Virus record (IMG/VR): IMGVR_UViG_3300047387_000077
Location: 1 to 33,205 of that record
Length of the DNA stretch: 33,205 nucleotides
Source of the DNA: a virus
Reading direction: 5' to 3' (one strand)
The notes below the pieces were generated by a model, which was not told the origin of the DNA, did not search any database, and saw only the letters and a program-made list of their open reading frames with translations. The translations under genes were made by a program, and so were the position numbers. Shown one piece after another: positions 1,737-10,073 of this stretch. Position 1 is the first letter of the stretch, and each line of letters begins with the position of its first letter.

Positions 1737-4193
1737 TTAGCTAAAGAAGTATGTTGACTCCTTTATCTTGTTTATCTCAGCGTCACCAAACTCTGGTGGC
1801 ACCGGGAAATCTAAGTCTGGATGTTGTTCCGTTAACTGCGTGCGCCATTCATTCAATAGATCACGCGAAAAGAAGTCAACAAAAACTTCACGCAATGTCG
1901 AAGAAAGTTCATCACACTTGTTTGAGTGGGTCCCATAGCTGTCATGGATGAACGAAAAGTCATAGATCCCATGGTTCTTGTTGGCACGCACAACAGTCTC
2001 GTGGAGGGCTGCCGCATCGAGGCTATGCACGACGTTAGGTGATGCACCATTAACCATTCTCCTTCGACTGATGACCTCATCGTCGTCCTCGCGAAACTTT
2101 ACGCACGTTGCCTTCCCACTGATGTATGTGTTTACTTGTTGGTTGTGGACCTTGTAGTATTCTTGGTGCACAGGGAACCCGGTAGGTGATACCCACGACA
2201 ACGCACGATTCTCATTGGCAATCAGCCGGGTGCACGCTTGGAACCAGTCCATGCACTCCTTTGGCTTCTTAAGGACCGACTCAATGCCCCGCCAGACGTG
2301 CTCAGCAAGCATGTGGATTGCGTAGTATCGCTTGTCGTCACTGAACGGTTTTTCTCGTTTCTTTCCGTGGATCTGTTCGTCATACCATTCGTTGATGTAT
2401 GCACGATTAGAATACGGAGTGAGCCCATACGAATAGCACATTACGGGCCTCTTGCAGCTAACCCGATCTATCCCAAAGCCCACCCAAGCACGCGCCAGTT
2501 CATCCCCGGTAGCGGCCTGGGCCTTCAAGGTCTGGACGGCATTAGCCGCAACAACCCCATAGATGTCCTGAGGTGTGGTTGTCGGTAGAACATTTGTCGC
2601 TTCCATCCCATACGGATCACGCGTCAGCATAGAAAGAATCTGTAGGCCATTGTTGGACGCGTCCATGTTCACCGGGAGCGCACTGTTGATCTTACCATTG
2701 AGCTTGTAGGCTGCCCATTCGTTCGCCCAGGCAAGGAAAGACCATGGCTTGTCTGCCTCTGTCCACAACAACTCACGCTCAGGGTCCTTGGCGATCTTGA
2801 TGGCGTCGTTGGTGAAGTCTTCTGACCACTTCCACCGCTCGTCCAAGGTGACCTTGTCGTTGCCCCACGCGTTCGCCCCGGCAACTGCGAGCCACTTAGC
2901 GTCGTTGTCGTTGGCCAGTCGTTCTGTCCGGGCAAACTGTAGGAGCCCCCGGCACAGGTCGTTCCCCATGACACTCAGCGACGACGCAATGTTATACACA
3001 CGCCCTCGGAAGTCACAGTGACTCGGATAGAAAAACCGAGAGGCACTGAGCTTCTCGGCTGTGAAGATAATTTTACTGGTCAGTAGGCGCTTCGACTTAG
3101 TGCTGGCGTTGCGTGAGTAGATCCCGGCGGCCATCTGTCGCCACTTACGGTTACTCTCCTCGTTGTCGTGAAAGTCATTCGGTATGTCTGGTAGTTGTTC
3201 GTCCTCCTTACTTGGCAGGGCACCCACCTCTACGTTGTTCTGCCAAGCCCACTTGGCAACACGTAACACACTCGGATTGATTACCCACGGCGTCCCTTGG
3301 ATAAGGTTACAGGCCTCCATGGGCACCTCGAGCTTGTCGTTCTCAATTGTCCTCAGGAAGTCCATGTTGGACGTCTTGATGAACGGAAGCTTGGGCAGGG
3401 CCGTGCCTACCGTGTCGTAGCCTCCCTCCCAGATCGAGCCCCAAGGCAACGGTGCGTCAGCGGTGGGCAACCAGAACGGCTCGAAAAGCTCTTTGTCGTC
3501 GTTGTAGTTCTCGATCCAGTCCAGGGTGCCCTTCGAGGCCGTCACGTAGCGAGTCGGCTTCTTACCTGCCTTCTCCAGGATGTAAACATACTCAATGATC
3601 CCGGTGACGTGCCTAAGTAGCTCAACCAAGGTCAAACCACAACTAAGCTTGTCGCGCCTGCGCCAGTCCGTGTAGCTTGGCATCAGGCCCTTGTCGGCCT
3701 CGTTACGCATCGAGCTCTTGATGTGCCTGCGCTGGTTAAGGAGTCCCCCACGGCGGCGCTGTGCGCCCAAAACAATTCCCTCTCCCTTGGCCTCGTTGTT
3801 CTTCACAAGGAAGTCACAGCGGTGCTGGTCCTCAACTCGTGAGCCAACAAAGTGACTCACTGCTGCCATGTTCTTCTTGAGGGTAATGCAATCCAGGACA
3901 GCCTTAATTACAATAAAACCAATCACTGATGGCTTCATCTCTCGGAGGCCTACCTGCCAGAGCGCACTGTTCCTGTTGTCCCAACCATCAACCATATCTT
4001 TGATGGCCTTTGAGTAAGTCGGGAGCCCTCCCCGGATCAACCTTTGCCCGTATTTCGTCTCGCTTTCTGCCTCCCGCTTCTTAGCAGACTCGATGCGAGC
4101 GCGATACCGACCAACGCCGAGGTCAACCATGTCTTGGTTGAGGTCCGACTGAGTAAGTTCTTTAATGACATCCTTTTCCTGCTCGTTCTGCAT
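1737..4193 (-). CDS. Single-subunit DNA-directed RNA polymerase (T7 gp1-like)
   Basis: An 818-aa T7-type RNA polymerase, somewhat shorter than T7's 883 aa, which would transcribe the middle and late phage genes. Motif A is NMDASNNGLQ with catalytic Asp511. Motif B is CKRPVMCYSYG with Lys581 and Tyr589, equivalent to T7 Lys631 and Tyr639. Motif C is FIHDSYG with catalytic Asp751. The N-terminal third is the less conserved promoter-recognition domain. The start at 4193 overlaps a 56-aa upstream gene by 32 bases and has no clear ribosome-binding site, so coupling is likely. It is separated from the nine early genes by a terminator near 4700 and has its own sigma70-like promoter at 4342-4370. In T7 itself, RNA polymerase is part of the early operon upstream of the early terminator. 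Confidence 0.98.
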   Translation of the reverse strand: MQNEQEKDVIKELTQSDLNQDMVDLGVGRYRARIESAKKREAESETKYGQRLIRGGLPTYSKAIKDMVDGWDNRNSALWQVGLREMKPSVIGFIVIKAVLDCITLKKNMAAVSHFVGSRVEDQHRCDFLVKNNEAKGEGIVLGAQRRRGGLLNQRRHIKSSMRNEADKGLMPSYTDWRRRDKLSCGLTLVELLRHVTGIIEYVYILEKAGKKPTRYVTASKGTLDWIENYNDDKELFEPFWLPTADAPLPWGSIWEGGYDTVGTALPKLPFIKTSNMDFLRTIENDKLEVPMEACNLIQGTPWVINPSVLRVAKWAWQNNVEVGALPSKEDEQLPDIPNDFHDNEESNRKWRQMAAGIYSRNASTKSKRLLTSKIIFTAEKLSASRFFYPSHCDFRGRVYNIASSLSVMGNDLCRGLLQFARTERLANDNDAKWLAVAGANAWGNDKVTLDERWKWSEDFTNDAIKIAKDPERELLWTEADKPWSFLAWANEWAAYKLNGKINSALPVNMDASNNGLQILSMLTRDPYGMEATNVLPTTTPQDIYGVVAANAVQTLKAQAATGDELARAWVGFGIDRVSCKRPVMCYSYGLTPYSNRAYINEWYDEQIHGKKREKPFSDDKRYYAIHMLAEHVWRGIESVLKKPKECMDWFQACTRLIANENRALSWVSPTGFPVHQEYYKVHNQQVNTYISGKATCVKFREDDDEVISRRRMVNGASPNVVHSLDAAALHETVVRANKNHGIYDFSFIHDSYGTHSNKCDELSSTLREVFVDFFSRDLLNEWRTQLTEQHPDLDFPVPPEFGDAEINKIKESTYFFS

Positions 4194-4332
4194 ACAATTC
4201 TAGGGCTTTCTTCATGAATTCTTGGCGGTCTTTTAGTCGCTTGATGCGCTTGGCAAGCATGGCACACTCATCCTCGACTAGTTGGCGTCTTATTTCTTCT
4301 GCTTCCTTGTTCTTTATTAACTTTATGCTCAT
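4162..4332 (-). CDS. 56-aa basic helical protein upstream of RNA polymerase, unknown function
   Basis: A short gene of 56 codons. ATG is at 4332 and TAA at 4162, overlapping the RNA polymerase start by 32 bases. The product is highly charged and predicted helical (KNKEAEEIRRQ at the N-terminus, then AKRIKRLKDRQEF), with a heptad-like look suggesting a coiled coil, and ends GKGCH. No family is recognised. It is the first gene after the sigma70-like promoter at 4342-4370, whose expected start point falls only a few bases before the ATG. The mRNA may therefore be nearly leaderless. It could serve mainly to couple ribosomes into the RNA polymerase gene. Coding status rests on position, frame integrity and composition. 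Confidence 0.65.
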   Translation of the reverse strand: MSIKLIKNKEAEEIRRQLVEDECAMLAKRIKRLKDRQEFMKKALELYAERAGKGCH

Positions 4333-4341
4333 TACGCCTAC

Positions 4342-4370
4342 TTTTTAGGTAAAAACACACATATTGTCAA
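4342..4370 (-). promoter_or_regulatory. Sigma70-like promoter for the 56-aa gene and RNA polymerase
   Basis: On the minus strand a perfect TTGACA (4370-4365), a 17-bp spacer and TAAAAA (4347-4342, four of six consensus bases). The expected start point is near 4335, only a few bases before the ATG at 4332, so the transcript would be nearly leaderless for the 56-aa gene. It would let host polymerase express the phage polymerase despite the terminator at 4682-4721. Confidence 0.6.
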
Positions 4371-4401
4371 TTTTATTCTTGACGCACCCCCGGTGCACGC
4401 T

Positions 4402-4454
4402 CTTAAAGTATCTCTAAGAGATCGCTAAGCAATCACTAAGCAATGGTCCTTAGT
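4402..4454. repeat. Phased short-repeat array B (10-11-bp period)
   Basis: On the plus strand, CTTAAAGTAT (4402), CTCTAAGAGAT (4412), CGCTAAGCAAT (4423) and CACTAAGCAAT (4434) are contiguous, followed by a CCTTAG remnant. CTTAAAGTAT is identical to a unit of array A at 7995. It lies 30 bases upstream of the RNA polymerase promoter. Confidence 0.8.
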
Positions 4455-4480
4455 GGTAAAAACAAAAGACAACTACATCT

Positions 4481-4520
4481 TAAGGAATCTATAAGACACT
4501 TAAAGACACTTAAAGACACT
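4481..4520. repeat. Phased short-repeat array C (exact 10-bp period)
   Basis: On the plus strand, four contiguous decamers: TAAGGAATCT (4481), ATAAGACACT (4491), TAAAGACACT (4501) and TAAAGACACT (4511). The last two are identical. The core and the phased spacing match arrays A, B and D. Confidence 0.8.
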
Positions 4521-4619
4521 ATGAAAAATAAAGACTTCTTTACTACAACTACAACCATTTGCTTAGTGTTTTATTACTTAGTGCTTCTGGCACTCATTGT
4601 GTTCGGCTCTAAGTCGTAA
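4521..4619 (+). CDS. Possible 32-aa plus-strand membrane micropeptide
   Basis: This would be the only plus-strand gene in the window. It has a Lys-rich start (MKNKDFF), a Thr run, then a strongly hydrophobic stretch (ICLVFYYLVLLALIVFG) long enough for one transmembrane helix, and ends SKS. It lies in the gap between early genes and RNA polymerase, directly after the 10-bp repeat array, and is followed by a hairpin that can terminate in both directions (4682-4721). No convincing ribosome-binding site or plus-strand promoter is visible. A chance AT-rich hydrophobic frame is a real alternative. Confidence 0.25.
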   Translation: MKNKDFFTTTTTICLVFYYLVLLALIVFGSKS

Positions 4620-4681
4620 TCGCCGGGGCAAACTCTACTATCATCCGGCCTGGCTGAGAAATCTAGTCGATCAGTGAGGGC

Positions 4682-4721
4682 ACAAAAAAGCGCTTAGAGA
4701 AAACCCTAAGCGCTTGTTTTT
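4682..4721. terminator. Bidirectional Rho-independent terminator closing the early unit
   Basis: A perfect 10-bp stem AAGCGCTTAG / CTAAGCGCTT with an 8-base loop. On the minus strand it is followed by TTTTTTG, so early transcripts should end here, 19 bases after the last early gene. On the plus strand it is followed by GTTTTTGG, so it could also stop transcription coming from the plus-strand micro-ORF at 4521. It cuts the early genes off from RNA polymerase. Confidence 0.88.
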
Positions 4722-4739
4722 GGTTGTTGTTGTTGTCAG

Positions 4740-4967
4740 TTATTTAGCAACAAAGCAAGTGCAATCTTTGTGCTCGAAATGTCTCGTTGCTTGTATCCAA
4801 TACCGACTACTTTCTTGCCTGCTTCTATATTTCAAGCTAGGCCTTTTAGTCTCGAAGGGCTCGAGCTCATACGAAAGAGAGTTAAAGTTTTCAATGAATC
4901 TCTTTGCATCAGCTATCCTCGAAAAGGTGGCACGGTTTGACTCATAGAGAGTGAATAGTTTGTTCAT
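4740..4967 (-). CDS. Early small protein, 75 aa, unknown function
   Basis: Unrecognised early protein. I chose the ATG at 4967 rather than 5018. It has the best Shine-Dalgarno sequence of the early region (GGAGG nine bases upstream), and its ATG shares bases with the preceding gene's TGA (ATGA overlap). The product starts MNKLFTLYESNRATFSR, is basic and soluble-looking, and ends with two nearby cysteines (KDCTCFVAK). It is the last gene before the terminator at 4682-4721, so it closes the early transcription unit. Such genes in T7-like phages often encode host-takeover factors, but nothing here shows a specific role. Confidence 0.8.
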   Translation of the reverse strand: MNKLFTLYESNRATFSRIADAKRFIENFNSLSYELEPFETKRPSLKYRSRQESSRYWIQATRHFEHKDCTCFVAK

Positions 4968-5257
4968 GCTGTTTCCTCCTTTGAATAGTGAGAACATGAA
5001 GTGCAATCTTCCTCCCATTGATCTGCAACGTAAGGTTGTTTTATGCGCTTTCGAGCATCTTTAAGCTGACACGGAATGCCCTCCATGAGCTTGAGAACAA
5101 TCCCGCACGAAACGTGAGTGATGTCTGTTCCCCAGCTCATCTGTTCAGCGAATTCCTCAATCAACTTGAGCGCATTTTGCCCTTCAAGCTTCTCAAGTCG
5201 TGCAAGGTTCTTCTTGTCGTGTTCTATTTCTTCTTTGTTCTTTTTTCTTTTGTCCAT
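4964..5257 (-). CDS. Early small protein, 97 aa, unknown function
   Basis: Unrecognised early protein. The first 40 residues are highly charged and helical (MDKRKKNKEEIEHDKKNLARLEKLEGQ), suggesting a coiled coil or nucleic-acid contact. The C-terminus contains CTSCSHYSKEE, a cysteine/histidine cluster together with an internal CGIVLKLMEGIPC pair that might bind metal or form a small fold. The start follows the leader CTAACAACAACAACT with no Shine-Dalgarno sequence. The stop overlaps the next start as ATGA, so the two are translationally coupled. It lies 11 bases after the 109-aa gene. Confidence 0.78.
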   Translation of the reverse strand: MDKRKKNKEEIEHDKKNLARLEKLEGQNALKLIEEFAEQMSWGTDITHVSCGIVLKLMEGIPCQLKDARKRIKQPYVADQWEEDCTSCSHYSKEETA

Positions 5258-5268
5258 AGTTGTTGTTG

Positions 5269-5598
5269 TTAGTTGCTTCCTTCTTTGTCAAAGATTTTGC
5301 GAGCGAACCATTGTTCTGGTGATTCGCCTTTTAAATCCGTAGGACCAGCGCCTTCCGCAATCTTGCGAAGTCGGTTTGCAAACCTGCTGGCGTGCCATTG
5401 GTTGTCAATATGCCCCGCATAGTCTGGAATTAGATCCTCAAGCTTTCGGAAGTTCTGCTGGATTTGCAGATTAAAAAGCAACGGCATACATTCCAAGACC
5501 GTGCGAACGTCTTTTGATGTCACTTCTGATTCCCAGTAAAGCCGCATGCACTTGTCTACTTGTTCCCTCTCTTCGTCCGTGCATCCAGCACGAAACAT
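5269..5598 (-). CDS. Early protein, 109 aa, unknown function
   Basis: Unrecognised soluble early protein, rich in charged residues and predicted mainly helical. It begins MFRAGCTDEEREQVDKCMRLYW and ends FARKIFDKEGSN. There is no signal peptide or membrane segment. The start lies 12 bases after the stop of the 47-aa gene, and a GGAGG that encodes the end of that gene is about 16 bases upstream, too far to be a normal ribosome-binding site. Reinitiation is therefore likely. It sits in the compact early gene run between about 7200 and 4740. Confidence 0.78.
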   Translation of the reverse strand: MFRAGCTDEEREQVDKCMRLYWESEVTSKDVRTVLECMPLLFNLQIQQNFRKLEDLIPDYAGHIDNQWHASRFANRLRKIAEGAGPTDLKGESPEQWFARKIFDKEGSN

Positions 5599-5610
5599 TT
5601 CAAAAGCTGG

Positions 5611-5754
5611 TCACCCTCCATTGTCTGGAAGGGCCCAAGTATCACGGCATTCAAACTCATCGACAGAGTGATAAGCTGCGAGTGCTTTCTTGCGTCGCTT
5701 TGGCCACGATTGGATTGCGTCGGCGGCAATCATTAACAGTCCTTTTTCTTTCAT
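5611..5754 (-). CDS. Early small protein, 47 aa, unknown function
   Basis: A short gene of 47 codons, starting at 5754 and ending with TGA at 5611. Its leader reads AAAAAGAACAA directly before ATG, the same A-rich leader used by three other early genes. This is the main argument that it is real. The product starts MKEKGLLMIAADAIQSW, has a very basic centre (PKRRKKA) and an acidic, aromatic C-terminal part. No family is recognised. It follows the hairpin at 5799-5824 and is closely linked to the 109-aa gene downstream. Confidence 0.7.
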   Translation of the reverse strand: MKEKGLLMIAADAIQSWPKRRKKALAAYHSVDEFECRDTWALPDNGG

Positions 5755-5798
5755 TTGTTCTTTTTAGTTTAGTTTGATCGGAGCTCATTAACTCCATG

Positions 5799-5824
5799 GA
5801 GCCCCTTGCGCTTGCAAGGAGCTC
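5799..5824 (-). promoter_or_regulatory. RNA hairpin between early genes, possible RNase III-type processing site
   Basis: Minus-strand stem GAGCTCCTTGC paired with GCAAGGGGCTC (11 pairs, one G-T) with a 4-base loop AAGC, in the 76-base gap between the 205-aa and 47-aa genes. No U-tract follows, so it is not a terminator. T7 early mRNAs are cut by RNase III at intergenic hairpins, and this could be an equivalent. Confidence 0.45.
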
Positions 5825-5830
5825 TTGGAA

Positions 5831-6448
5831 TCAACCGTTTTCCCAATGGCGCTTTATGGTGACCCATAGCGTCGCTTGATAGACTGACGGAGCTTCGTTG
5901 AGCTTGTCTGCTTCGCTGATGGTTAACCTCTCAACGCGGTTGTATTGTGGTTTAGTTAATCCTTCCACAATCGCCTTGCGCTTCGTTGAGCTCGTCAAAC
6001 ACGCTCGCATGTGCCAACGATCAATCACAACACAACGAGCCATTCTTGTGAGCTCTATGCTCTTGGCGAAGGCCCAAGTTTTTGGGGAGCCACCATCGAG
6101 GGCCCTTGAGTTACCCTCGAGAAGGTCCCAAGCTTTGGTTTTGTTGTTGTTGAATGTGCAGACCCTCACGTCACTAGGCTTGCCACCATCATGATGGACC
6201 AGCGCTAAGTTCAATGCATCAAGCTTGTTGCGTTCCCAATCGTTCATTGGGCTCAATGCGCTAATCACTGCGGACGCCGTCCAGACATCACAACCAACTT
6301 CTTGCGCGATCAATTGAGCGTGGGAGTTAGCGTCATCATACCATTCGCCACCTTGGCGTGCGTCTTGTGCTGTTGCTCTGTCTCGCCATGTTCGGAGGTT
6401 CTTGCGGATACTACTATCACTGACCTTTGTAAGACTTTGCTTTTTCAT
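5831..6448 (-). CDS. Early 205-aa protein, HhH-GPD DNA-glycosylase-like motif order (tentative)
   Basis: The largest early protein, found in phages but without a function I can name. What is visible: TASAVISALSPMNDWERNK at 57-75, FNNNKTKAWDLLEG at 99-112, GGSPKTWAFAKSI at 119-131 and VVIDRWHMRA at 140-149. The order and spacing parallel endonuclease III-type HhH-GPD glycosylases. Those have an LSAQxxDxxVN helix, then a hairpin with a catalytic Lys, then a VDTHxxR stretch with the catalytic Asp about 18 residues later. Here Lys123 and Asp143 are 20 apart. The FeS cluster cysteines of endonuclease III are absent. A role in base excision, modification or fold-only DNA binding is inference. Its ATG overlaps the stop of a 30-aa membrane peptide (ATGA). 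Confidence 0.8.
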   Translation of the reverse strand: MKKQSLTKVSDSSIRKNLRTWRDRATAQDARQGGEWYDDANSHAQLIAQEVGCDVWTASAVISALSPMNDWERNKLDALNLALVHHDGGKPSDVRVCTFNNNKTKAWDLLEGNSRALDGGSPKTWAFAKSIELTRMARCVVIDRWHMRACLTSSTKRKAIVEGLTKPQYNRVERLTISEADKLNEAPSVYQATLWVTIKRHWENG

Positions 6449-6537
6449 TTCTTAAGCATCAGTTTGATTATGATAACCCACATGGCAGCCGTGATGCTGA
6501 CCGTGATCGCCCAAAACATTGAGAATGTGCGCTTCAT
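6445..6537 (-). CDS. 30-aa single-pass membrane micropeptide
   Basis: A 30-codon gene with ATG at 6537 and TGA at 6445. Both ends form ATGA overlaps, with the 66-aa gene upstream and the 205-aa gene downstream. This double coupling is strong evidence that it is translated. The peptide begins MKRTFSMFWAITVSITAAMW, continues with a hydrophobic VIII, and ends KLMLKK. It would form one transmembrane helix with basic residues on both sides. No family is recognised. As an early-expressed membrane peptide it might act on the host envelope or in superinfection exclusion, but that is speculation. Confidence 0.7.
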   Translation of the reverse strand: MKRTFSMFWAITVSITAAMWVIIIKLMLKK

Positions 6538-6734
6538 TTGAATGCCCTCCTTCCGTTGCGCTTCTCGATTAGCTTGAAATCAAGCGTCTCAGTCCGTGCA
6601 ATGATATCGGTCATGACATCTTCATGACTGGCCCGCAAGAGTGCTGCTTGTATGTCTGCGAGCGTGCTCCGTTGTTCTTCGAGAACCGTGATGATCTCAC
6701 GGATTGTTTGCTTTGTTCTTTTGTTCTTGTTCAT
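6534..6734 (-). CDS. Early small protein, 66 aa, helical, unknown function
   Basis: An unrecognised early protein starting MNKNKRTKQTIREIITVLEE and continuing as one long amphipathic helical stretch (QRSTLADIQAALLRAS, then TETLDFKLIEKRNGRRAFK). It looks like a coiled-coil or small helical-bundle protein with basic termini. The start follows AACAAAAGAACCA, the repeated early-gene leader, with no Shine-Dalgarno sequence. The stop overlaps the 30-aa membrane peptide start as ATGA. Confidence 0.78.
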   Translation of the reverse strand: MNKNKRTKQTIREIITVLEEQRSTLADIQAALLRASHEDVMTDIIARTETLDFKLIEKRNGRRAFK

Positions 6735-6758
6735 TGGTTCTTTTGTTCTTGTTGTTGT

Positions 6759-6908
6759 TTACTTACTTTCTGGGATTATTTTGATGCTATCAAAAAACCT
6801 CGAGGGAATGTCTGTCAACTTGGAGTAGATCTCCGCCCCTTCAATCTCTCCCCCGGTCAGCATCCAAAGGAGACCGACTTGTTCCGCTAAGTATTCTTTT
6901 TCGTTCAT
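6759..6908 (-). CDS. Early small protein, 49 aa, unknown function
   Basis: A 49-codon gene with ATG at 6908 and TAA at 6759. Its leader, GATAAAAGAACCA directly before ATG, is nearly identical to the leaders of the genes starting at 7199 and 6734. The product begins MNEKEYLAEQVGLLWMLTGG and ends FFDSIKIIPESK. It is mixed hydrophobic and acidic, with no clear membrane segment. No family is recognised. The shared leader and its fit between neighbours support it. Confidence 0.72.
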   Translation of the reverse strand: MNEKEYLAEQVGLLWMLTGGEIEGAEIYSKLTDIPSRFFDSIKIIPESK

Positions 6909-6921
6909 TGGTTCTTTTATC
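6906..6921 (-). promoter_or_regulatory. Repeated SD-less early leader, example at 6908
   Basis: Minus-strand AAGATAAAAGAACCA directly precedes ATG. Nearly the same leader precedes the genes at 7199 (AAGATAAAAAGAACCA) and 6734 (AGAACAAAAGAACCA), with shorter forms at 5754 (AAAAAGAACAA) and 1708 (AAAAAAGAACA). Upstream of several are (AAC)n runs. There is no GGAGG. These look like a shared translation-initiation element rather than chance. Confidence 0.6.
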
Positions 6922-6935
6922 TTGTTATTGGTTGT

Positions 6936-7199
6936 TTACTCCACGATAAAAACACCCACAATATTGGAATCATAACCAAGCACCCAAGTCTTGCGCTTGT
7001 GAATGTCACGCGAGATGACCAAAGACTGTGAGTTAGCTGTGGTTCTCTTTAACCATCCACAAGGAAAGATAATCTCTTTAATCTTCCCATCTTCATCACG
7101 CTTGTAATCAGTGACGGCTTCGTTTGCGTATCCATAATTCTCAAAGCCCGGAAGGCTGTTAAAGATAGCGACGAGTTCTTTTAATGTCTTGTAGTTCAT
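6936..7199 (-). CDS. First early gene, 87 aa, unknown function
   Basis: The first gene after the non-coding junction zone, in the position of T7 gene 0.3, which in T7 blocks host restriction. The product is 87 aa, begins MNYKTLKELVAIFNSLPGF, and has a beta-rich C-terminal half (KEIIFPCGWLKRTT, then SLVISRDIHKRKTWVLGYDS and VGVFIVE). It shows no similarity I recognise to T7 Ocr and is not strongly acidic. The leader is GATAAAAAGAACCA before ATG. A host-defence or host-takeover role is expected from position only. Confidence 0.78.
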   Translation of the reverse strand: MNYKTLKELVAIFNSLPGFENYGYANEAVTDYKRDEDGKIKEIIFPCGWLKRTTANSQSLVISRDIHKRKTWVLGYDSNIVGVFIVE

Positions 7200-7314
7200 T
7201 GGTTCTTTTTATCTTGTTAGCTAGCTCAATAATTGGGCCAGTGAAGAGATTACTAGCAGTTCTATTTAATTCTTGCAAGAAAAACTTTAAACTTTCTCAA
7301 GGTTGTTTTGAGTA

Positions 7315-7398
7315 GGCTTGGTGAAGCTTGGCGAGTCTTGATGTGCGTGCGAAGGAGTCGGAGAGGAATCGCTGAGGAATCTCTAAGGAATCGCTGAG
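7315..7398. repeat. Phased short-repeat array D
   Basis: On the plus strand, 11-bp units GAGGAATCGCT (7363), GAGGAATCTCT (7374) and AAGGAATCGCT (7385) are contiguous, followed by GAG and preceded by a diverged unit GAAGGAGTCGGA (7351). Further left are GCTTGGTGAA and GCTTGGCGAG decamers. The text CTAAGGAATCGCTGAG here resembles CTTAAGGAATCTATAAG in array C and GATCGCTAAG in array B, so the arrays are related. Confidence 0.75.
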
Positions 7399-7618
7399 CT
7401 TTTCAAAACGTAAAAACACCCACACACACACTCACACGCACCCGCGGACCGGCTCAGCGCTGGCCAATCGATCGCTTGTTGCTTCCCTTCGATACCCCCA
7501 GGCCCCCCTTGTCATCTTTGCGCTCCTTCGCGCCCGACCTCCTGGCGTGAAGACGTCGTCAAGTTTGCGCTGAGACTCGCTGAGCCTGCGACGAGGCCCT
7601 ATGGGGTGATGCGACACA

Positions 7619-7642
7619 CTCTCCGTATATATCAACCCCTCA
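7619..7642 (-). promoter_or_regulatory. Second T7-class promoter candidate
   Basis: The minus strand reads TTGATATATACGGAGAG; the part TATACGGAGAG matches TATAGGGAGAA of the candidate at 8124-8146 in 9 of 11 positions. It lies just after the terminator at 7654-7694 and points into the early genes. In T7 a comparable left-end promoter, phiOL, exists. Two sites are too few to fix a consensus. Confidence 0.45.
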
Positions 7643-7653
7643 GACTTTTTTGT

Positions 7654-7694
7654 GAAAAATAGAACAGGGCCCCTAGCGATTACTAAGAGCCCTG
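7654..7694 (-). terminator. Rho-independent terminator behind the 78-aa gene
   Basis: Minus-strand stem CAGGGCTCTTAG paired with CTAGGGGCCCTG (12 pairs, two G-T), a 6-base loop TAATCG and a TTCTATTTTT tail. It lies 43 bases after the stop of the 78-aa gene and closes that unit before the early region proper. Confidence 0.85.
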
Positions 7695-7736
7695 CCTAAT
7701 GAACAACACAATGCAAATATAGAGCATAAGGTTAAC

Positions 7737-7973
7737 TCAGGGCTTCTCTTCGTCAGACGATGAGGGCGGCCCGAAGTCAATCTCGATGCCATCTATATAG
7801 GAATTAAAAGATTCGTCAACAATATTTAATCCGACATTGAGCAGGCCTTTGGCTGCAAAAGAATTGTCATAGATGACTCTGCACTGGTGCCGAGTGTCAG
7901 CCACAACAACCACATAGTTCTCGTAATGTTCGCCTAGGGTGGCTTTGAGTGAGTCGAGAGGGTCGTCAGGCAT
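7737..7973 (-). CDS. 78-aa acidic protein in its own promoter-terminator unit
   Basis: A small acidic protein (MPDDPLDSLKATLGEHYENY at the start, FGPPSSSDEEKP at the end) with a beta-like middle (YVVVVADTRHQCRVIY). No family is recognised. It is bracketed by strong signals: a sigma70-type promoter at 8084-8111 upstream and a Rho-independent terminator at 7654-7694 downstream. The long leader between them is made mostly of phased short repeats. It sits between the large terminase and the early genes, roughly where T7 has gene 19.5 before the right end. It could instead be an early-expressed gene if the physical end lies upstream of it. It may be a nucleic-acid mimic or host inhibitor, but only its acidity suggests this. 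Confidence 0.72.
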   Translation of the reverse strand: MPDDPLDSLKATLGEHYENYVVVVADTRHQCRVIYDNSFAAKGLLNVGLNIVDESFNSYIDGIEIDFGPPSSSDEEKP

Positions 7974-7974
7974 G

Positions 7975-8094
7975 CTTAGAGATACTTAGAGTTACTTAAA
8001 GTATCTTTAAGATATCTAAGAGATATAGTTGTAAATGAATAAAATTAAAGAATATAGTGGTCTCTTAGTCATCTCTAAGAGTACTTATAGAGAG
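7975..8094. repeat. Phased short-repeat array A (10-11 bp, TTAGAG/TAAGAG core)
   Basis: On the plus strand, units CTTAGAGATA (7975), CTTAGAGTTA (7985), CTTAAAGTAT (7995), CTTTAAGATAT (8005) and CTAAGAGATAT (8016) follow without a gap. A second run is CTCTTAGTCAT (8062), CTCTAAGAGTA (8073) and CTTATAGAGAG (8084). The period of 10-11 bp puts every unit on the same face of the helix. Related units occur in arrays at 4402, 4481 and 7363. Confidence 0.8.
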
Positions 8095-8111
8095 AAAATA
8101 ACCCTTGTCAA
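8084..8111 (-). promoter_or_regulatory. Strong sigma70-type host promoter
   Basis: On the minus strand a perfect TTGACA (8111-8106) is followed by a 16-bp spacer and TATAAG (8089-8084, five of six consensus bases). This is the best host-type promoter in the window. The start point is expected near 8077, and transcription would enter the repeat-rich leader and the 78-aa gene. It is the probable early promoter of the genome end. Confidence 0.75.
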
Positions 8112-8123
8112 TAGGCTTTTTAT

Positions 8124-8146
8124 TCTCCCTATACGATCATTGATAT
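8124..8146 (-). promoter_or_regulatory. T7-class phage RNA polymerase promoter candidate
   Basis: The minus strand reads GATCGTATAGGGAGAA. The TATAGGGAGA decamer is identical to positions -4 to +6 of the T7 consensus promoter, while the upstream recognition part differs, as expected for a diverged polymerase. It lies about 30 bases after the large terminase stop, where T7 has phiOR near the right genome end. It may serve transcription and replication initiation. Confidence 0.65.
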
Positions 8147-8176
8147 AAGACATTTATAATGAATCATTTACAACTA

Positions 8177-9856
8177 CTACCAAGTGAGTATGTTTTCACT
8201 TCCTTTTCGTGTTTTATAATATGCCTCTGCATACTTTTCTAGCTCCATTTTAAGATCGTCCTCCTTTCGCTCTAGGATGCGTTCTGACGCGTCTTGGGCC
8301 ATTTGGGCGGCCCAGTAGCCAACCGCCATCGAAAGCGCGTCTAAGCGGTCGTCATGCGTCACAGCGCCCCTGTCACGAGTTATACGAGTCATCTGGTAGA
8401 TCAACTGGTATTTCAGTGAGTGGTCCTTAGGGTAGCTCTGAGTCGTCTCGTAGTCGTTCTGGATGACCTTCGGGTCAATCACAAGCTTATGGCCTGTCAT
8501 CACTGGCTCGAGGGTATCGATGATCCTTCGTTCCTTTTGTGTGCTGTGCCTCACTTCCTCAATGGTGCACGGATGGACCTTGCGAAGTATTGGTTTTAGT
8601 AGTTCAACAAACATACCATCCCCGAAGTTACTCTCTACGACGATCTCATTAACCTTGTGTTCTTTGGCGGTCATCGAAAGGAACTTAAGGGTTTCCTCAG
8701 AGTATCCCCCTTGGACCCCTCCAGCCGCTGTGACATAAAGGAATCCGTTAAGCATCTTCACGACTGCGTAGCCTGTCTCGTCCTTGCCTCGTCCTGACGG
8801 GTCGATTGACATGACGCTCCCGGTATACTTAACGTGTTCGCCAAGCACCTTCATCGGTCGATAGAATCTGTCTCCGGTCATCCCTACGTTAGGTATTGAT
8901 CCGTCCCACTCGAGCTCTGGGTCCCGAGCCCACACTAGGCGTTCTGGGGCCAGTTCGTTGTCAAGGGACATCACGATAAGGTCCGCAAGCTTCAGCGGAT
9001 ACTTTTCGACGTCACTAAGGTTTGAGTCCAGCATAAATTGAAGAGCATACCCGGCAGAGCCGTAGGATACTTTACGTTCGGCAAGGTCTACGTCAGAGAA
9101 CCGTAGTGGCTCTGTGGACCTTCCTTTTTGTTCTATATCAACACAACAATCAGCGATGTGCCCATCGTAACGCTTAGCGCTTTGGTCCGGGGTGACATAC
9201 TGAGCAGGCCAGATGCGTGTCTGGTAGCCCCGCTCGGTTAGCTGACGGTATATTGTGTCTTCGCATTGTGGTGTTCCTAGAAAGATTATCTTTGAGTCAT
9301 CGTTGGGTTTAAGGATCGCATCGAACTCTTTGACTTGTTCTCCGAGCTTGTCTCGCATCATTTGGGTCGCCGAGTTGTTTGGGACCTCGACATCGTCAGC
9401 TACAATGATGTCTGCACGAGACCCGGTCAGTTGAGATGTGATACCCAGGGACTTGACGGACGGCGCGTGGGCCGCTGGGGCTGGGCCGACGTCGAATGAG
9501 ATCTTACTGAATCGTTGTTTGTCTTGGGGAATGAGGTGCTTAAGTAGGGGCATCTCATGGATAAGCCTAAGAGTAAAAGTTGAGAAGTCATCTGCTCGAG
9601 TTTTTGAAGCAGAGACAACAAGTATATTCTTTGAGGGGTCGAGGAGCAACTGGTGGACAACGTAAGCAGAGCAGATCCAGCTTTTTCCAACGCCTCGAAA
9701 GCCTTGAATAACTGCTCGCTTGTCTCCGTGCTGCATGTAATCCGCGATCTCATATTGAATAGTTGTGGGGGCAGGTAAGTTTAGTTGCTTCCAGACAAGA
9801 TAAAGGAAGTTACGGAAGTCTTTAAGCTGTGATGCTGTTTGTTTTATGTCAGCCAT
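8177..9856 (-). CDS. terL: Terminase large subunit (T7 gp19-like)
   Basis: A 559-aa packaging motor. The ATPase domain has Walker A GFRGVGKS at 52-59 and a Walker B region DIIVADDVEVPNN. The nuclease domain shows MSIDPSGRGKDETGYAVV, VVESNFGDG and HDDRLDALSMAVGYW, the acidic metal-binding set of T7-type terminases. It translocates DNA into proheads and cuts concatemers. The start overlaps the HNH gene by 8 bases. An AGGAG lies about 14 bases upstream. The stop at 8177 is followed within 35 bases by a T7-class promoter, as expected near the right end of a T7-like genome. Confidence 0.98.
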   Translation of the reverse strand: MADIKQTASQLKDFRNFLYLVWKQLNLPAPTTIQYEIADYMQHGDKRAVIQGFRGVGKSWICSAYVVHQLLLDPSKNILVVSASKTRADDFSTFTLRLIHEMPLLKHLIPQDKQRFSKISFDVGPAPAAHAPSVKSLGITSQLTGSRADIIVADDVEVPNNSATQMMRDKLGEQVKEFDAILKPNDDSKIIFLGTPQCEDTIYRQLTERGYQTRIWPAQYVTPDQSAKRYDGHIADCCVDIEQKGRSTEPLRFSDVDLAERKVSYGSAGYALQFMLDSNLSDVEKYPLKLADLIVMSLDNELAPERLVWARDPELEWDGSIPNVGMTGDRFYRPMKVLGEHVKYTGSVMSIDPSGRGKDETGYAVVKMLNGFLYVTAAGGVQGGYSEETLKFLSMTAKEHKVNEIVVESNFGDGMFVELLKPILRKVHPCTIEEVRHSTQKERRIIDTLEPVMTGHKLVIDPKVIQNDYETTQSYPKDHSLKYQLIYQMTRITRDRGAVTHDDRLDALSMAVGYWAAQMAQDASERILERKEDDLKMELEKYAEAYYKTRKGSENILTW

Positions 9857-10073
9857 TTCTTGAGCGATTTCTCCTTTTTGATTGAATCCTTAGGTTTGCT
9901 CGTGTGTTGTTGTTGGGGTTCCTGTCTTTATGATCAACGTCCTTCCCCTCCAAAGTCTTCCTGCCTACCTTTTTAATCATCAACCTTCGTGCCGCGTTGC
10001 GTCCGGCCCTGCGTTTCTTCTGGGTCGGCTTAGCGTGGTAGGTGTTGTATTCGTTCTTGTAATTTCTAGCCAT
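9849..10073 (-). CDS. Small HNH-family protein between the terminase subunits
   Basis: A 74-aa, extremely basic protein. The C-terminal half carries a compact HNH motif, GKDVDHKDRNPNNNTRANLR, with Asp47-His48 as the first conserved pair and Asn56/Asn60 downstream. The N-terminal half (KKRRAGRNAARRLMIKK) is a basic helix. It overlaps the small terminase gene by 8 bases and the large terminase gene by 8 bases, so it is translated as part of the packaging module. HNH proteins next to terminases stimulate cos or pac cleavage in some phages. A similar role here is inference. A homing-type nuclease is less likely, because it does not interrupt any gene. Confidence 0.85.
   Translation of the reverse strand: MARNYKNEYNTYHAKPTQKKRRAGRNAARRLMIKKVGRKTLEGKDVDHKDRNPNNNTRANLRIQSKRRNRSRNG

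Follow-up and report, generated by a model that had tools for sequence, protein, structure and literature searches.

Two classes of phased repeat arrays at the predicted genome ends and the RNA polymerase gene of a marine T7-like phage contig

The DNA analyzed here (the window) is a linear virus contig of 33,205 bases (IMGVR_UViG_3300047387_000077) with its main genes all on the minus strand. It carries three dense, essentially non-coding arrays of short repeats, one on each side of a predicted terminal repeat and a third upstream of the RNA polymerase gene. They fall into two classes: class I, made up of CT-N-AG units, comprises the array at the right genome end, which lies where phage T7 has its short repeats right (SRR), and the RNA-polymerase array, while class II is the array lying where T7 has its short repeats left (SRL). 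With a probability that we put at roughly 55%, these arrays constitute the system of genome-end repeats of a T7-like phage, in which class I would be a cooperative binding array over a host promoter that marks the right end.

Local self-alignment of the whole 33-kb window at lags of 9 to 13 bp ranked the three arrays first (segments 7919-8027, 7316-7445, and 4402-4520, with scores of 28, 26, and 23). The best remaining segment scored 14, and shuffles of the region 4000-8700 never exceeded 16, so that chance or base composition was ruled out as their source by the scan and the shuffle tests. The arrays reported in the initial annotation are therefore real and in excess over the rest of the genome. 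Core units were located at 4402, 4414, 4425, 4436, and 4449 and at 4479, 4489, 4499, and 4509 (RNA-polymerase array), at 7354-7398 as AGGAATC units every 11 bp (SRL-like array), and at 7975, 7985, 7995, 8005, and 8016 followed by 8064, 8075, and 8084 (SRR-like array). The unit CTTAAAGTAT is indeed identical at 4402 and 7995. Spacing inside the sub-arrays was mostly 10 to 11 bp, in agreement with the helical phasing first proposed, but the phasing of whole arrays was moderate (mean resultant of 0.68, period of 10.75 to 11). Since the same kind of array has a period of 12 to 13 in T7, phiSG-JL2, and SP6, the alignment of all copies on the same face of the helix does not hold generally.

The arrays had been described as a single family that fills every large non-coding gap around the genome junction, and neither part of this description survived: the array at 7315-7398 is of a different class from the other two, and no array is found in the large gap at 7736-7426, which is presumed to be the terminal repeat. 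Unit sharing between the SRR-like and RNA-polymerase arrays gave z values of 5.7 to 6.2, versus 2.5 and -0.6 between the SRR-like and SRL-like arrays. Along similar lines, strong SRR matches within the interval of the window from the large terminase subunit (TerL) to the RNA polymerase were confined to the RNA-polymerase array. Both class I arrays consist of two phased CT-N-AG blocks on either side of an AT-rich spacer. Judged by sequence comparison, the SRR type is the constrained class and the SRL type the free-running one. A single CT-N-AAG unit common to all lineages was rejected, as it was significant in only part of them.

In the genus-level group of the window, the SRR plan is ca. three CT-N-AG units at 9 to 13 bp, a gap, and several further units. 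Unit 1 starts 15 to 17 nt past TTGAC(A) in ten loci of this group, and the -10 box therefore belongs to the array; relatives keep TTGACA together with a -10 box within the first unit. The two blocks are separated by 41 to 46 bp (near 43 bp) in five of the six clades, and the spacers are 79 to 91% AT in all six, compared to 53% for the genome. In the window, the AT-richest stretch of all (7992-8067) includes the spacer. The reported clustering of arrays around the junction and the sigma70 promoters thus holds, with both promoters on the minus strand; a consensus promoter scan had omitted them, as both -10 hexamers lack a final T. A role of the array as leader of the 78-aa open reading frame (ORF) downstream was ruled out by genomes that lost the ORF (L007, L008, and L018, with a C-terminal remnant in L016) and retained the array.

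Two further observations concern this region. In L040 (9665-9950), the right-end promoter and the first array block are tandemly duplicated as a 120-bp unit, and in the window a 24-nt imperfect inverted repeat (8026-8049 and 8153-8176), not evident in more distant clades, flanks the promoter region.

The RNA-polymerase array, ca. 3.5 kb from the SRR-like one, repeats the two-block plan with gaps of 30 to 63 bp and was detected only in the genus-level group of the window. Clades A, A2, and B share an almost invariant RNA polymerase promoter, and the clade C variant keeps TTGACA. Across five genomes, the units of the two class I arrays covary: the arrays of the same genome gave mean z values of 5.1 to 6.7, versus 2.5 to 3.5 for other pairs, and just 1 or 2 of 120 re-pairings were as good as the genuine ones. 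A pattern of this kind would be predicted for two arrays with the same reader protein and suggests that they share one; for the CT-N-AG class, it supports the sequence-reading protein that had been proposed. The covariation of two distant arrays also provides a handle for finding that protein.

Between the RNA-polymerase promoter and the gene, a 56-aa ORF (MSIKLIKNKEAEEIRRQLVEDECAMLAKRIKRLKDRQ..., 4162-4332, minus strand) overlaps the start of the polymerase. Short proteins similar to it, which is probably helical, occur at the same spot in other clades. In L112-L133, another repeated dyad, ACTATCA(C/T)GTGATTGNGTCCG, is found ahead of the RNA polymerase promoter. Contigs L116, L121, and L127, from independent metagenomes, begin 65 bp upstream of the RNA polymerase, and the start of L121 is inside this dyad.

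Given its RNA polymerase, TerL with a T7-type nuclease domain, small terminase subunit (TerS), T7-type SSB, endonuclease I, primase-helicase, and portal, the window, a marine genome, can be placed by protein families in the Autographiviridae (T7-like). By both RNA polymerase (41%) and TerL (71%), the nearest named relative is Ayaqvirus S45C18. The host could not be named, as the genome matches at 56 to 58% TerL identity (Pseudomonas putida, Microvirga, and a Vampirovibrionales metagenome-assembled genome among them) are too distant. On the minus strand, the order TerL, junction, early genes, RNA polymerase indicates that the contig crosses the concatemer junction. TerL is followed by array 8094-7975, the 78-aa ORF, a terminator, a genome-end signature (7651-7617), array 7399-7310, the early genes, array 4517-4400, and the RNA polymerase. 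Table 1 lists the features.

Table 1. Arrays, promoters, genome-end elements, and neighboring genes of the window (positions in the 33,205-base contig)
Feature	Position	Strand	Remarks
RNA polymerase, single-subunit, 818 aa	1737..4193	-	PHROG 414, Pfam PF00940
Sigma70-type promoter of the RNA polymerase transcript, TTGACA-N17-TAAAAA	4342..4370	-	
Class I block 2 upstream of RNA polymerase	4400..4456	-	five units at 10-13 bp
AT-rich spacer of RNA-polymerase array	4457..4477	-	ca. 72% AT
Class I block 1 upstream of RNA polymerase	4478..4517	-	four units at 10-10.5 bp
Intrinsic terminator closing the early operon	4683..4715	-	upstream of RNA-polymerase array
Class II SRL-like array	7310..7399	-	TTCCTCAGCGA/TTCCTTAGAGA units at 11 bp, then CACCAAGCTT-type; score 29, p at floor 0.003
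Direct terminal repeat (predicted), ca. 200-250 bp	7400..7630	-	approximate bounds, from T7, LUZ100, and Pasto geometry
Genome-end signature AAAAAAGTCTGAGGGGTTGATATATACGG	7617..7651	-	same signature at T7 terminal repeat start and LUZ100 repeat
Strong intrinsic terminator	7655..7696	-	just before genome-end signature; RNA fold z -6.0
78-aa ORF (LGEHYENY...)	7737..7973	-	downstream of SRR-like array
SRR-like class I block 2	7975..8022	-	five units at 10-11 bp; score 32, p at floor 0.003
AT-rich spacer between SRR-like blocks	8023..8061	-	
SRR-like class I block 1	8062..8090	-	three CT-N-AG units; unit 1 coincides with -10 box
Sigma70 promoter TTGACA-N16-TATAAG, right end	8084..8111	-	TTGAC plus unit starting 15-17 nt on, ten loci
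Single-copy conserved element ATCAATGATCGTATAGGGAGA	8124..8144	-	kept in close relatives; 12 bp upstream of sigma70 promoter
Terminase large subunit (TerL), 559 aa	8177..9856	-	PHROG 38, PF22530
Terminase small subunit (TerS, T7 gp18 family), 89 aa	10066..10335	-	PHROG 891, PF11123

The genome-end signature, AAAAATCTGAG-GGGTATACG usually followed by a C-run/G-run, is common to T7, LUZ100, pelagiphages, roseophages, and the window. It was also found downstream of TerL in close relatives, CRP-114, CRP-125, HTVC131P, HTVC134P, Bylgja, IME-DE1, and several metagenomic lineages. In T7, the terminal repeat begins just past AAAAATCTGAG; in LUZ100, AAAAATGCGAGACGGTATAGCG sits 28 nt ahead of the annotated start of the terminal repeat, which is 244 bp long (PMC10134795). 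Since the signature coincides with the T7 and LUZ100 ends, we predict the left edge of the window repeat near 7635-7615 (in or just after the signature) and the right edge near 7400. The signature thus predicts genome ends in metagenomic contigs and could serve to orient them. The SRL-like array lies 200 to 340 bp past the signature, at the far edge of the terminal repeat as in T7, LUZ100, and Pasto. In the latter two, the annotated right edge is straddled by the array (171-271 versus an edge at 244 in LUZ100, 172-401 versus 271 in Pasto). A TGTGGGTGTTTTTAC block occurs three times in the window (7403-7425, 4350-4363, and 6947-6960); it is invariant ahead of the SRL array in relatives, and a variant form lies inside the RNA-polymerase promoter.

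By the same kind of comparison, ca. 20 lineages have flanking arrays of a similar kind at their known or predicted ends, which makes such arrays widespread in the family. When each region was compared with 300 of its own dinucleotide shuffles, 13 of 14 lineages had a significant SRR-type array and 17 of 18 a significant SRL-type array (T7, SP6, phiSG-JL2, LUZ100, and Pasto among them). Most SRL regions were fixed by distance from the end signature or the genome start; the SRR regions and the SRL of clade B, L042, and LUZ100 were chosen with the arrays already seen, and their p-values are optimistic. The phiKMV array was not significant in the shuffle test.

The T7 terminal short repeats were reportedly described with the sequencing of the T7 genome, and in the open literature searched, we found no paper that assigns the SRL/SRR repeats a role. 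As in T7 and T3-like phages, degenerate tandem units flank the terminal repeat of the window from TerL to the early region: one set lies between TerL and the left edge (predicted from the signature), as SRR does, and another at the right edge, as SRL does. The link to T7 made in the initial annotation is therefore sound for the position beside the terminal repeat, a trait of ca. 20 lineages, but not for the units. T7 SRR has CTTAGAG, CCTATAGGG, and CCTAAAG, some of them ca. 11 bp apart, whereas the arrays of the window contain no CCTAAAG unit, and the five CCTAAAG/CTTTAGG copies of the window are all outside them. The window also differs in its period (10 to 11 versus 12 to 13), in SRR and SRL units that are unlike each other, in a block 1 over the sigma70 -10 box, and in the extra RNA-polymerase array. 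Because they have neither the CCTAAAG unit nor a unit shared across sides, we classify the arrays, on their sequence and place, as an SRL/SRR variant in the same location and not as a member by sequence; they probably also work in the same place. The T7 heptamer was found elsewhere, with five CCTAAAG copies at 21-bp spacing in L210, an Ayaqvirus-like contig, and six CTTTAGG copies at exactly 12-bp spacing after TerL in a Microvirga lupini prophage (L273, 7749-7815). This last array and the left-end CCTTAGT array of SP6 resemble those of the window in their place relative to the genome end or TerL and in their CT-N-AG type, but they have a period of ca. 12, and a second array is not shown.

The parC site of plasmid R1, bound by ParR, consists of two sets of phased 11-bp repeats with an AT-rich promoter region between them. 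Class I arrays have two phased blocks and an AT-rich spacer, but the right-end promoter overlaps block 1 instead of lying in the spacer, and the phage arrays are located at genome ends and at the polymerase gene. No ParM or ParR families were found among the neighboring ORFs.

In the explanation that we favor, one small phage-encoded protein would bind each quasi-palindromic CT-N-AG unit, probably as a dimer, and would fill the phased units of the two class I arrays in a cooperative manner. Binding at the right end would cover the -10 box (unit 1) and the start site of the host promoter; the resulting nucleoprotein complex, spanning the AT-rich spacer next to the terminal repeat, would silence host transcription there and help to mark the junction for maturation. 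From upstream of the RNA polymerase gene, this protein would also tune the polymerase promoter. SRL, on the other hand, would be a tandem repeat with a fast turnover, placed at one edge of the terminal repeat, and its unit sequence would not be read specifically. We entertain only tentatively the broader proposal that an undescribed phage DNA-binding protein, co-evolving with CT-N-AG arrays on a genome-end host promoter and upstream of the RNA polymerase, couples early transcription control to end processing in T7-like phages with temperate relatives, T7 SRR being a remnant or relative of this system.

Several points weigh against the favored explanation. No binding protein was found, and domain searches recognized no DNA-binding domain in the early ORFs. 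The RNA-polymerase array is missing (by shuffle test) in CRP-125, LUZ100, and Bylgja and is therefore outside the core system. The five genomes (clades) used for covariation are related, the clade C pair was joined from two contigs of a single metagenome on the assumption that they belong to one virus, and recombination between the arrays could be a partial source of the covariation. SRR was statistically weak in L068 and not detected by this method in L051, L060, L137, and L138, and the position of the terminal repeat in the window is itself a prediction. As for candidate binders, the structure of the early DUF7178 protein (5831-6448, minus strand), kept in clades A, A2, and B, showed only a weak resemblance to an OGG1-type DNA glycosylase (E above 1).

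An alternative is that the arrays are pac-type binding sites of TerS that mark the concatemer junction for cleavage. They lie on both sides of the predicted terminal repeat in almost every lineage, a TerS gene is present, and the TerS sites of phage pac/cos regions are likewise repeated beside the cleavage region. However, TerS is 92 to 100% identical among phages in which the SRL units change completely or are missing, and its core does not vary across lineages with different units, which disfavors it as a unit-specific reader of SRL. Besides, packaging is not expected at the RNA polymerase gene, ca. 3.5 kb away, and yet a class I array is found there too. The predicted TerS structure was of low confidence and was not used. 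We regard this alternative as unlikely.

We are equally skeptical that class I arrays are purely operators of a lysis-lysogeny or timing regulator, with the genome-end position incidental. This would fit the -10 box held by unit 1 in ten loci, the location of the second array before the RNA polymerase promoter, and the presence of integrase genes and of MarR-type or other helix-turn-helix genes in relatives such as CRP-125, Bylgja, LUZ100, and Pasto; control of the RNA polymerase by MarR has been proposed (PMC10134795). Nevertheless, the arrays stay at the genome end in CRP-125 and LUZ100, which have no TTGACA promoter there, and no integrase or regulator was recognized in the early region of the window.

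A secondary replication origin at the right end, and perhaps another at the RNA polymerase gene, with phased iterons around an AT-rich spacer, appears improbable. The layout is bipartite as for iterons, the spacer, AT-rich in each of the six clades, falls within the most AT-rich part of the window, and the ATCAATGATCGTATAGGGAGA element lies next to the promoter. By its position and its TATAGGGAGA end, this element is possibly a phage-polymerase promoter like T7 phiOR. Its own score is 31.8 and the next best match in the window scores 13.1, so that it is single copy, and we rejected it as one member of a set of phage promoters. Yet T7-type replication is generally known to need no iteron-binding initiator, no Rep-like protein was found among the ORFs scanned, and the phiOR-like element is both putative and present once.

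Little weight can also be given to arrays that arise without any recognition, as by-products of slippage or recombination near genome ends, although SRL taken alone may be of this kind. The hypervariability of SRL would be explained, as it ranges from none in L012, L013, and L069 to >300 bp in L018, among phages with TerL 95 to 99% identical. In class I, by contrast, the type of unit, the layout of the blocks, the length of the spacer, and the overlap with the promoter are maintained from clade to clade, and there is covariation with a distant array. An RNA or single-strand hairpin element is highly improbable: the palindromic units fold well in some genomes (z of -4.5 as RNA for the RNA-polymerase array of the window), but the clade B and C RNA-polymerase arrays fold with z of 0 to +1, there is no common structure, and no Rfam family reached its gathering score.

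Between TerS and TerL, the window encodes a 74-aa ORF (9849-10073, minus strand) with weak similarity to HNH endonucleases, for which the best PHROG was 4590 (unknown function).

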